A stretch of 41,284 bases of DNA from Marinoscillum sp. GTDB lineage: Bacteria; Bacteroidota; Bacteroidia; Cytophagales; MED-G16. Below the pieces are notes generated by a model. That model was not told the DNA's origin and searched no databases. It saw only the letters and a program-made list of their open reading frames with translations. The position numbers were made by a program, and so were the translations under genes. Shown in pieces: positions 2,236 to 41,284 of the stretch (positions are counted from its first letter, which is position 1; every line of letters begins with the position of its first letter). The DNA is taken from the NCBI GenBank assembly GCA_002692105.1, contig NZKG01000002.1:1-41284 (forward strand). The letters are read 5' to 3'.

Positions 2236-3924
2236 ATGGTTAAACTATCCGAAAAAAAAAAGAAAGACTTTAGAAGAGATAAGGTTCTAAAACATGCAAA
2301 CAAAACAGAGCCTGAATTTCCGTCTTTTATTGCCGGTCTTGATACTTATTCTGGAAGTTGGGATTTTCAGATGGCTGCTCACCTGCTAAGGAGGACAACA
2401 ATAGGCCCTTCTATTGAAGAAATAAATCAGAGCGTTACAGACGGTCTTGAGAAAACTCTAGAAAAGCTATTAGATGAAAAATTCATCAATGTTGATCCAC
2501 CAATCAACTATCAAGACGAAGACGACCCCGAGACACCTCTTGGCAGTACATGGATAAACGCAGAGAAGAGAGTGGATGACTTTAAAAGAAAAAATTCTTA
2601 TGCCGCATGGAGGGTAGGCCAGATACTAGACAAGGATAAAGATATCTCTGTAAGAGAGAATATGCTTCTTTTTTGGCAAAACCATTTTGCTACAGAAGCA
2701 ACAGTAATCAACGACGCCAGGTATACCTACTACATGCATGAGAACTTTAGAAAAAATTTTTTAGGAGACTTTAAGCGGTTAGTTAAGACAGTAAATATAG
2801 ATCCTGCAATGCTTACATATCTGAGTGGCATATATAATGTAAAGGATGCACCAAATGAAAATTATGCAAGGGAGTTATTTGAGTTATTTACAGTTGGCAA
2901 GGGTCCTATAGACGGAGAAGATAGCTACACTTACTACACTGAGTCGGATATTTTAGAGGCTTCTAAAATTCTTACGGGTTGGAGGGTTCAGAGAAATCAT
3001 GTTGGAGAAGGTAGAGAGTACTTTACCTTAGATCGCCACGATACCTCAACCAAAACTTTCTCAGAAAAATTCGGAAATAAATCAATAAGCTCAAACGGAG
3101 ACAAAGAACACGAGGACCTAATTGACTTAATTTTTGAGAACGATAGAGTCTCTGAGTTTATATGTGAAAAATTATACAGATGGTTCGTCTATTATGTTAT
3201 AAACGACGAGGTAAAAAGCAAGATAATTAAGCCTTTAGCTAAAACTTTTAGAGATAATAATTACAGGGTCAAGCCAGTACTCCAACAACTATTCAGAAGT
3301 AATCATTTCTATGAGATGTACATAAGAGGTGCCGTAATTAAAAATCCTATTTCATTTAGTCTGGGGTTTCTTAGACAGTTTACGATGTATGGTTTTGACG
3401 AACTGGATAACTTTGAAAAATATTATTACTGGAGAGCAAGACACATTAATATTTCCGATCAGGGTCAAAACATTTTAGATCATCCAAATGTTGCGGGATG
3501 GCCAGCGTATTACCAAGAGCCTCTATTTCATGAGTACTGGATAACATCAGTAACTCTTCCGAGCAGGACAACACACATTAAATATTACTTATCAAATAAT
3601 GGCGTAAGAGCTTCTCAAACTGATAATAATATTAGGGTAAAGTCTAAGCCTTTAACTTTAGTTCAAACATTTAAGAATCCTCATGACATTGTGGATACCG
3701 TTGACAAACTATGTGAATGGCTCCTGCCTGTCCAAAGTGAAATTTCACAAGATCTAAAAAACGATTTTGTAAATATTGTAGTTGGAGACAATCCCAATAT
3801 ATGGGAGGATGAGTATAATGACTACGTAAATGACCCAGATGATGAGAAAGAGGAATCATTAAATAAAAAACTTAGGTCATTACTAAAAGAAATATGTCTA
3901 ATGCCTGAGTATTACCTTAGCTAA
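2236..3924 (+). CDS. DUF1800 family protein
   Basis: 562 residues. DUF1800 proteins have no settled biochemical function and are typically encoded beside DUF1501 proteins, as here. Family signatures seen: HLLRRTTIGPS near residues 49-59, MLLFWQNHF at 143-151, and NENYARELFELFTVGKG at about 207-223. The N-terminus is very lysine-rich and has no obvious signal peptide or transmembrane helix, unlike its partner. The stop codon TAA is followed directly by the ATG of the DUF1501 gene with no gap, so the two are almost certainly co-transcribed and perhaps translationally coupled. Start chosen at the first ATG in frame; no Shine-Dalgarno is visible. Family assignment is firm and function unknown. 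Confidence 0.9.
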   Translation: MVKLSEKKKKDFRRDKVLKHANKTEPEFPSFIAGLDTYSGSWDFQMAAHLLRRTTIGPSIEEINQSVTDGLEKTLEKLLDEKFINVDPPINYQDEDDPETPLGSTWINAEKRVDDFKRKNSYAAWRVGQILDKDKDISVRENMLLFWQNHFATEATVINDARYTYYMHENFRKNFLGDFKRLVKTVNIDPAMLTYLSGIYNVKDAPNENYARELFELFTVGKGPIDGEDSYTYYTESDILEASKILTGWRVQRNHVGEGREYFTLDRHDTSTKTFSEKFGNKSISSNGDKEHEDLIDLIFENDRVSEFICEKLYRWFVYYVINDEVKSKIIKPLAKTFRDNNYRVKPVLQQLFRSNHFYEMYIRGAVIKNPISFSLGFLRQFTMYGFDELDNFEKYYYWRARHINISDQGQNILDHPNVAGWPAYYQEPLFHEYWITSVTLPSRTTHIKYYLSNNGVRASQTDNNIRVKSKPLTLVQTFKNPHDIVDTVDKLCEWLLPVQSEISQDLKNDFVNIVVGDNPNIWEDEYNDYVNDPDDEKEESLNKKLRSLLKEICLMPEYYLS

Positions 3925-37856: not shown

Positions 37857-38257
37857 AATTAAAAATTGGAGATAATTACTCAGAAAATTTTATCATAACT
37901 CAAGATATGGTTAACAAGTTTGCCGAGCTTAGTGGAGACAAAAACCCATTACATATTGATAAAGATTTCGCAGCTAAAACAAGGTTCAAAAGAAGGGTTG
38001 TACATGGATTATTTTCCGTAACCTCATTTGGAAAAGTTATGGGAACAAAGTTTCCTGGCCATGGGTCTATTCATGTAAACCAAAACCTGAGCTTTAAAAG
38101 ACCTCTCTACCCTGACAAGGAATATAAGGTATATGTGGAGTTAATTAAAATCATTCAGGAAAAACACTTTGGTATATTTAAAACACAAATTTTAGATATG
38201 AATAATAAGCTTATTGTCGATGGGACAGGTACAGCTCTTAATGAAGAAAAATTATAA
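37853..38257 (+). CDS. MaoC-like hydratase (PhaJ-type (R)-specific enoyl-CoA hydratase)
   Basis: 134 residues, a single hot-dog domain. The hydratase 2 motif is complete: FAELSGDKNPLHIDKDFA with D29 and H34, followed by HGLFSVTSFGK. Such enzymes add water to enoyl-CoA in the R direction; the small size fits PhaJ or FAS-type dehydratase-like members. It is the last gene of the glyA-tatC-rpiB-rbfA-lolC/E-maoC run. Its stop shares the palindrome TTATAA with the stop of the convergent metalloprotease gene. Physiological substrate unknown. Confidence 0.88.
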   Translation: MKLKIGDNYSENFIITQDMVNKFAELSGDKNPLHIDKDFAAKTRFKRRVVHGLFSVTSFGKVMGTKFPGHGSIHVNQNLSFKRPLYPDKEYKVYVELIKIIQEKHFGIFKTQILDMNNKLIVDGTGTALNEEKL

Positions 38258-40699
38258 TTCACTACTACAAGAAGAAAGCGTATGATCGTGTGATCCAATA
38301 GGTGATCCGTCGGGAGGCTTTAACTCTTCTAAATCATTAACCTCAAATTCACCAGATAAAAACATTGATATTTTATCTGACAGGTAATGGTAGTGGTATT
38401 CTTCAGGGTCTTTTTTATCTAATATCTTTTGTGTTTTTTTAAGAATTGAATATGTTCTCGCGTTTACCTCCTCATGGGATTTCTTACTACTTGCCAATAC
38501 AAAAAGGTGATTTAAGACGTTATGATTCACCATTTTTGAAATCTCTATTTCTAGGTTTGATAAACCAAGGTAATTGTTTTTGGAATTTCTGTCTTTTAAA
38601 ATAGTCGCGTTAATAATCTCGTTAAGGACGTGATTCAAACCCGGTTGGGTCTTATTGTTTCTGGATTTAAGTGTAAGTAACCTAGAAGCCCTATCTGTAT
38701 TTAACAACATTTTCAAAGTTAAATTAGTTGCAGTCTCTGCCGCGGCTAAATAATCAAATGCAAGCCCAGTTCTAGACTTGAATGTTTCACGAGTTCTGGG
38801 GTAGCCAAAAGCTCTTGGTGGAATTAGACTAATTAAATCTTCCGGTAGGGATAAATTCTTTGGGTGAATAGAATTAAGTAATGACTTCAAGGCTTTATTT
38901 TGTTGTTCTTTAGATAAAAGCTTAGTGACTAATTGTCCATCCCCTTTTAAGGCGTAATTATACTCTAAGCCACCAATAACTTTTGCAGCAGCCTCAATCT
39001 GGTAACGATGAAGTAAATACATAGGGACTAGAACCTCCTCAATACTTGACATTGGCTCTCCATTTTTAATAGCATCATCGGAAAAATTATCTAAAATATA
39101 TCTCCTAATTTCTAGCATTCTATTTAATTCATCTGAAGCATCGTATGCGTTGTCCCATAAATGAGCTCTTGGGTGTGCACTTCCTGGAGGTCTCGAATCT
39201 TGATCGGTAATAAAATAGATATCTTCTTCATAACCATCTTGTAATATTTTTTCAAGTTGAGTTGATTCGTTAGAATTAAATTGTCTATATCCCCAGTTGA
39301 TTGCTAATTTATCCCAATCACCAATCCCATGATCATAGGCATCAGAAAGATCAACCTTGTTATCTGAAAATTTAATTAATGGGTGTGGATAATCCATTAC
39401 AGATTTACGGTCTCTTGCGCTAGATACGAAGTTATGAGAAAGTCCTAGAGTATGACCAATTTCATGTGCAGATAACTGCCTCAACCTTTTAATCGCCATT
39501 TCCTTCATTAAATCTACAGCTGAATTTTCGTTACCATATGGTCGTAATAAACCTTCTGCAATTAGGTAGTCTTGTCTGACCCTCAATGATCCTAAAGACA
39601 CATGTCCTTTAATTATTTCACCTGTTCTTGGGTCAACAACAGATGAGCCGTATGACCAACCTCTAGTTGATCTATGAACCCACTGAATTACATTATACCT
39701 AACGTCTAACATATCTGCACCTTCAGGCAATATTTTAATTTGGAAAGCATTCTTAAACCCTGCCGCTTCGAAGGCCTCGTTCCACCACGCTCCACCCTCA
39801 AGCAATGCGGATTTAACGGGCTCTGGAACACCTCGATCTAAATAATATATTATTGGCTCAATCGGTTCACTTAACTCTTTTTCAGGGTTTTTTTTAATTA
39901 ACCTGTGCCTTCTAATATATTTAACATGTAGATCGTCCTCTATTGGGCTAGCGTAATCATAAAATGTCATTGCACCATATCCTGCCCTTGGGTCAAATTT
40001 TCTTGGTGTATAACCATTATCCGGTAAACTCACAAAAGAATGCCTTGTTCTAACAGAGAAAGATTCTCTATTAGGAGAAACAGAAAGAAGCCATGAGCCA
40101 TTTGCTTTTCCTCTAAAGGTAAGAAAAGACTCTATTTCTGTGTTAAGAGGAAAGTTTTTTGATAAGGAATTATCAAAAGATGAACTTGAATTGTCAACTT
40201 TAAAAGAACCTTGATTTCTCTGAGTAAGTCTAGATGAAATCATGTGCGAATCTCTGAGAACAAACTCTGTTGCATCAATGAGATACCTCTCCCTTGATTG
40301 TGCAACTGTATTAAATCCCCATATTGTGGATTTAGCAAAAGCATCACTTACTGATTTTACCTCCTCATAATTATATGATACTGCTCTAAACTTATAGTTT
40401 GGCTGAACCATTAAAACCTTAGGCCCTTTTTTAATAAACTTTATTATTCTTGTCCCGCCGATTTGACCTCTATCTAAACCAATATCATTAGACCCTAAAC
40501 CAGCAGATAAATAATTGACATATAGTAGTTCTTTTTCTAATTCTTTTATATCTAGATAAACTTTTCCTTTTTCATTATCCCAGTAATAATCAATGAAACC
40601 ACTTTTTTTATGAAGTCCTTCCGTAAAACTTTCAATACTTGGAAGTTGAGAGTAAGCACTTAGGTGCGAAATAAAAAATAGAAAAATAAATAACCTCAT
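38252..40699 (-). CDS. secreted zinc metalloprotease of the DUF5117/DUF5118 family
   Basis: 815 residues. A signal peptide (MRLFIFLFFISHLSAYSQ) is followed by an N-terminal DUF5117/DUF5118-type region and a metzincin-like catalytic centre HEIGHTLGLSHNF, with H412, E413, H416 and H422 as zinc ligands and base, and a downstream SVMDYPHP Met-turn. It is likely periplasmic or surface exposed; no T9SS tail is visible. It lies nine bases after the DUF6702 gene, in one operon. Residues 63-90 are encoded by the stretch that reappears inverted at the window's right edge. Natural substrate unknown. Confidence 0.92.
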   Translation of the reverse strand: MRLFIFLFFISHLSAYSQLPSIESFTEGLHKKSGFIDYYWDNEKGKVYLDIKELEKELLYVNYLSAGLGSNDIGLDRGQIGGTRIIKFIKKGPKVLMVQPNYKFRAVSYNYEEVKSVSDAFAKSTIWGFNTVAQSRERYLIDATEFVLRDSHMISSRLTQRNQGSFKVDNSSSSFDNSLSKNFPLNTEIESFLTFRGKANGSWLLSVSPNRESFSVRTRHSFVSLPDNGYTPRKFDPRAGYGAMTFYDYASPIEDDLHVKYIRRHRLIKKNPEKELSEPIEPIIYYLDRGVPEPVKSALLEGGAWWNEAFEAAGFKNAFQIKILPEGADMLDVRYNVIQWVHRSTRGWSYGSSVVDPRTGEIIKGHVSLGSLRVRQDYLIAEGLLRPYGNENSAVDLMKEMAIKRLRQLSAHEIGHTLGLSHNFVSSARDRKSVMDYPHPLIKFSDNKVDLSDAYDHGIGDWDKLAINWGYRQFNSNESTQLEKILQDGYEEDIYFITDQDSRPPGSAHPRAHLWDNAYDASDELNRMLEIRRYILDNFSDDAIKNGEPMSSIEEVLVPMYLLHRYQIEAAAKVIGGLEYNYALKGDGQLVTKLLSKEQQNKALKSLLNSIHPKNLSLPEDLISLIPPRAFGYPRTRETFKSRTGLAFDYLAAAETATNLTLKMLLNTDRASRLLTLKSRNNKTQPGLNHVLNEIINATILKDRNSKNNYLGLSNLEIEISKMVNHNVLNHLFVLASSKKSHEEVNARTYSILKKTQKILDKKDPEEYHYHYLSDKISMFLSGEFEVNDLEELKPPDGSPIGSHDHTLSSCSSEL
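40430..40512 (-). repeat. internal arm of an 83-base perfect inverted repeat
   Basis: This stretch, read on the minus strand, codes for metalloprotease residues 63-90. It is identical base for base to the plus strand at 41202-41284. The arms are separated by 689 bases. The match stops at 40512/41202 and runs to the window's last base, so the true length may be greater. Confidence 0.95.
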
Positions 40700-40708
40700 A
40701 TTGTAATA

Positions 40709-41185
40709 TTAAAACTCGATTTTTGCTGACAACTCAGACACATTTATTTTTAATGTTGAAAGCTTGTTATCTTTTTCAAAATAAATCAAATTTTCTTGCT
40801 CTTCAAAATTTGATATTAGGCAGAGATCACGAATTTCTAAAGAAGATATTTTTTTTATTTTCAGAAACTCAAAAAAACAATGTATAACACCATTTTTATA
40901 CTCATGACCTAAGTAATTTAGTTTAGTTGATTTATTATTCACACTAAGACTAAAATTGTTACTTAAATAATCATCAATATATAGATTAATGGTGTCTTGA
41001 TTTGAATTAACTATATCGAAATATTCGTTGCCAGTATATTTACGTAAAGCAATCTCAAAATCATCAAAAAATATTTTTTTTTGAACTTCGATAGATTGCC
41101 TTTTGTTATTATACTCCATATACGATGTACTCACATAAAATTCATGGAATGAGAATAAAGCAAATAAAGAAAAAAGAGCATTCAT
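40709..41185 (-). CDS. DUF6702 family protein
   Basis: 158 residues. The N-terminus has a short hydrophobic stretch (MNALFSLFALFSF), probably a signal peptide, followed by HEFYVSTSYMEYNNKRQSIEV and KKIFFDDFEIALRKY, which fit the DUF6702 pattern (HpfYvSv..i.yn....leI...iF.dDlE.aL). DUF6702 proteins are of unknown function and, in my recollection, commonly stand next to large M1-like or DUF5117 metallopeptidases in Bacteroidota, as here. Residues 125-158 contain no recognisable motif. Its promoter region is lost, because only 16 bases precede the inverted copy at the window end. Confidence 0.75.
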   Translation of the reverse strand: MNALFSLFALFSFHEFYVSTSYMEYNNKRQSIEVQKKIFFDDFEIALRKYTGNEYFDIVNSNQDTINLYIDDYLSNNFSLSVNNKSTKLNYLGHEYKNGVIHCFFEFLKIKKISSLEIRDLCLISNFEEQENLIYFEKDNKLSTLKINVSELSAKIEF

Positions 41186-41201
41186 CTAATTTTTTTAATA
41201 A

Positions 41202-41284
41202 ATTTATCTGCTGGTTTAGGGTCTAATGATATTGGTTTAGATAGAGGTCAAATCGGCGGGACAAGAATAATAAAGTTTATTAAA
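41202..41284 (+). repeat. outer arm of the inverted repeat (truncated, inverted metalloprotease fragment)
   Basis: Plus-strand reading gives SAGLGSNDIGLDRGQIGG and further residues of the metalloprotease, in frame to the last base and without a start codon or any mismatch. It is a fragment, not a gene. A chimeric contig end is the simplest cause. Confidence 0.9.

Follow-up and report, generated by a model that had tools for sequence, protein, structure and literature searches.

Positions 41207–41284, which form the final 78 bases of the contig analyzed here, are probably an artefact that arose by way of a chimeric molecule or a chimeric read. That the inverted copy at this contig end is an artefact of some kind, with pure assembler error included, is close to certain. 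The fold-back belongs to the sequence file rather than to the organism, and it is without biological function. It matters only as an issue of quality control, and positions 41207–41284 should be trimmed from the contig.

The inverted copy and its source gene

The window, meaning the whole stretch of DNA that was analyzed, is the complete contig C32 (41,284 bases), and the fold-back is thus located at a contig end. Arm 1 (40430–40512, plus strand) is genuine sequence. Arm 2 (41202–41284) is its perfect reverse complement, with a match at 83 of 83 positions. The two arms are separated by 689 nt, and arm 2 finishes on the final base of the window. An earlier sequence-only reading had described an exact 83-base inverted copy that runs to the last base and had suggested checking whether the contig ends at the fold. 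Both points are confirmed. The arms are the sole exact inverted repeat of at least 20 bases within the 41,284-nt window. Because no other exact inverted 20-mer pair is present, chance can be excluded as the origin of the arms.

The copied piece originates in an intact gene for a met-zincin metalloprotease (38252–40699, minus strand), which is an 815-aa open reading frame carrying DUF4953 and DUF5117 (Pfam PF16313, E = 1.4e-68, and PF17148, E = 6.4e-36). By arithmetic on this reading frame, arm 1 codes on the minus strand for residues 63–90, in agreement with the earlier claim that the copied piece comes from the middle of the gene. The region between the arms holds the start of the metalloprotease gene and all of an intact DUF6702 gene (40709–41185, minus strand), whose 158-aa product matches Pfam PF20420 (E = 2.5e-32). 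A 15-base near-repeat, TTTTTTAATAAA(C/T)TT, is also found at 40427 and 41191, but no connection between it and the fold is known.

Uninverted continuation in a sister contig and in related genomes

When the genome of the window was searched with arm 1, a third match was found on contig C28. The head of this contig (C28 1–2678) aligns without gaps to window positions 38529–41206 on the plus strand with 98.9% identity, and arm 1 recurs at C28:1902–1984, where the sole differences are four N positions. The shared stretch contains 29 differences, eight of which are N in C28. Because 25 of the 29 differences fall at third codon positions, C28 appears to carry the same locus in another strain. In the stretch that was examined, the isolated N bases likewise all occupy third codon positions. 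Judged from these substitutions, the overlapping parts of C32 and C28 are one locus in two strain variants and not a pair of paralogues, and the two contigs can be recognized as neighbors.

C28 and the window part exactly at window base 41207, where the window sequence reverses and reenters the metalloprotease gene. Past this point, C28 proceeds through a HupE/UreJ-family gene, then an M1 peptidase gene and then a gene for a PLP-dependent enzyme, and it has no inverted arm. The start of the HupE/UreJ gene in C28 lies 47 bases from the start of the DUF6702 gene, and the two genes are divergent. No exact inverted 20-mer is present in the first 12 kb of C28.

Homologues of DUF6702 were used to locate the corresponding loci in other genomes, and eight relatives were read (G001, G002, G004, G006, G009, G010, G012 and G013), of which six belong to the same genus and two to the same family. 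The gene order metalloprotease–DUF6702–HupE–M1 peptidase–PLP enzyme is found in all eight. The MaoC dehydratase gene is on the opposite side wherever the stretch read extended that far, and arm 1 was matched in relatives within the same metalloprotease gene. A comparison of the upstream flank of the DUF6702 gene in relatives had been proposed by the earlier reading. In this comparison HupE follows in eight of eight genomes without an inverted arm, and exact inverted 20-mers are absent from all eight loci. In other genomes of the genus, the end sequence of the window for the most part matched the metalloprotease gene itself, and a fold was not found. A scan of genome contigs recovered relatives but no conspecific assembly. 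Those relatives that carry a name in GTDB are listed as uncultured Marinoscillum and Flammeovirgaceae, which we take to be marine bacteria. One relative, G006, also has two copies of the locus on two contigs (second match G006:C48:12803–13240), so the genome of the window is not alone in having unmerged variants. Since C28 and the relatives carry straight on at position 41207, no raw reads were needed to test the artefact interpretation.

When the window, C28 and four relatives were aligned, an intergenic block, TTTTAATAAATTTA, proved to be invariant in all six sequences. The base that follows this block is A in C28 and in the four aligned relatives, and T only in the window. The block (window 41193–41206) lies between the divergent DUF6702 and HupE genes and is conserved amid variable surroundings. 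Its position and invariance suggest that it is possibly a shared promoter or operator element.

The junction itself was defined by comparing three sequences, namely the window, C28 and the reverse-complemented arm 1. The sequence ATTTA at 41202–41206 (plus strand) is true chromosomal sequence and at the same time the reverse complement of 40508–40512, and it therefore constitutes a 5-base microhomology at the chimeric junction. For this reason the foreign piece is 41207–41284, which is 78 bases rather than 83. This tail (no strand assigned) is the reverse complement of 40430–40507, and it occupies the place where C28 and the relatives have the HupE/UreJ gene. The junction sequence AATAAATTTATCTGCTGG spans 41206/41207. 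In length the tail falls below a typical short read, and it stops where the contig stops. The fold at the end of C32, the microhomology and the sequence that truly continues the chromosome are direct observations.

Origin of the fold-back

The genome of the window comprises 1,514,111 bases in 32 contigs and is 89% complete and 6.47% contaminated. We examined both 3-kb ends of all 32 contigs for terminal fold-backs. Among these 64 ends, an exact fold-back is present only at that of C32, and the idea that contigs of this assembly end systematically in fold-backs can be rejected. As a counterpoint to a chimera, this result means that the assembly as a whole does not tend to fold back.

Other irregularities are more widespread. 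Eight pairs of contig ends share unmerged stretches of 0.75–2.7 kb with 89–99% identity (for example, C3 head/C27 head, C4 head/C21 tail, C4 tail/C28 tail and C21 head/C29 tail), and single N bases are common. The unmerged overlaps probably reflect strain variants, and part of the 6.47% contamination estimate may stem from them. On account of the N bases and the overlapping ends, a Tara Oceans MEGAHIT + Minimus2 pipeline (PMC5769542) was weighed as the source of the assembly, but we make no claim to that effect. The last 75 bases of the C31 tail (2926–3000 of the 3-kb end) are an exact direct repeat of sequence located 1.8 kb inside, and the first 34 bases of the C5 head (1–34) are an exact direct repeat of sequence 1.3 kb inside. 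These are perhaps direct-orientation chimeric tails that result from the same kind of error. In addition, 44 exact bases resembling part of a tRNA gene at the C16 head (1–44) recur, cut short, in the C30 head (1413–1456), which could reflect duplication at an integration site or a further error of assembly.

For the C32 end we infer a priming event followed by the choice of the chimeric path by the assembler. A 3′ end finishing in ATTTA (41202–41206) would leave its template during amplification or library preparation, and the freed end would anneal to the complementary TAAAT (40508–40512) ∼0.7 kb away. Extension of the annealed end would then copy the metalloprotease gene backwards. At this strain-variable and poorly resolved contig end, the assembler would have taken the chimeric reads, with the true continuation surviving as C28. 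When random fold-back junctions were simulated in the window sequence, only 0.8% reached a microhomology of at least 5 bases, and the microhomology therefore favors priming by a free 3′ end. The data are compatible with amplification, library preparation or the assembler as the source of the artefact. A further counterpoint is that C28 is a slightly different strain variant, and on this comparison the structure of the exact C32 strain is not strictly proven.

A chimera of whole-genome amplification or an assembler turning around had been the preferred explanation of the sequence-only reading, and this preference is borne out by the uninverted continuation of C28 and eight relatives and by the 5-base microhomology. 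The second of these possibilities, that no chimeric molecule was involved and an assembler or contig-merging step reversed direction at a short shared word where the contig nears its strain-variable end, is the less likely one, although it deserves some weight. The several unmerged overlapping contig ends (0.75–2.7 kb, 89–99% identical) and the scattered N bases indicate that strain merging was difficult, and C31 and C5 also finish in short exact direct repeats, of 75 and 34 bases. However, the word shared at the turn is only 5 bases long, and neither a de Bruijn nor an overlap assembler would make the jump on so short a word unless a read carried the junction.

Biological explanations had been offered as the alternative, and they are rejected because the second arm is missing from the sister contig and from the relatives. 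The perfect identity of the arms fits a very recent event, but a genuine inverted duplication of at least 83 bases of the metalloprotease gene upstream of DUF6702, present in the C32 strain and absent from the C28 strain, is very improbable given that the second arm is absent from C28 and from every one of the eight relatives and that the copy halts at the contig end. Moreover, seven proteins of the locus were scanned (FtsX/MacB permease, MaoC dehydratase, met-zincin, DUF6702, HupE/UreJ, M1 peptidase and PALP), and no recombinase or mobile element was found among them. We give still less credence to a phase-variation cassette, that is, an invertible DNA segment flanked by 83-base inverted repeats. 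Two perfect inverted arms do surround a 689-base segment that holds a gene start. For such a switch to work, however, the chromosome must contain the two arms whichever way the segment is turned, and in C28 and the relatives arm 1 stands alone. This arm is ordinary, conserved protease coding sequence, and there is no recombinase among the seven proteins scanned. For perfect inverted copies at the contig ends of other draft genomes, sister contigs and the gene order of relatives should likewise be checked before biology is inferred.

Comparison with known chimeras

Chimeric joins of this form have been published. Among the chimeras that Lasken and Stockwell (2007, PMC1855051) found in multiple displacement amplification (MDA), 85% were inverted joins, mostly between segments <10 kb apart and with 2–21 nt of complementarity at the junction. 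Strand-switch chimeras belong mainly to this class (PMC1855051). At the C32 end the second segment is inverted, the segments are 689 nt apart (<10 kb), the ATTTA complementarity of 5 nt is within the 2–21-nt range, and the junction is absent from C28 and from the eight relatives. As in MDA chimeras, the intervening piece is skipped. An MDA origin of the C32 end would further require that the sample was amplified by a strand-displacing polymerase such as that of phi29.

Similar chimeric reads arise in ordinary library preparation without whole-genome amplification, as described by the PDSM model (PMC10908179). The C32 end resembles these products of self-pairing single strands in that one strand is followed by its own inverted complement. 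In contrast, library chimeras of the PDSM type mostly begin where fragmented DNA contains a natural inverted repeat or palindrome (PMC10908179), whereas the two sites joined in C32 are 0.7 kb apart and have only 5 bases in common.
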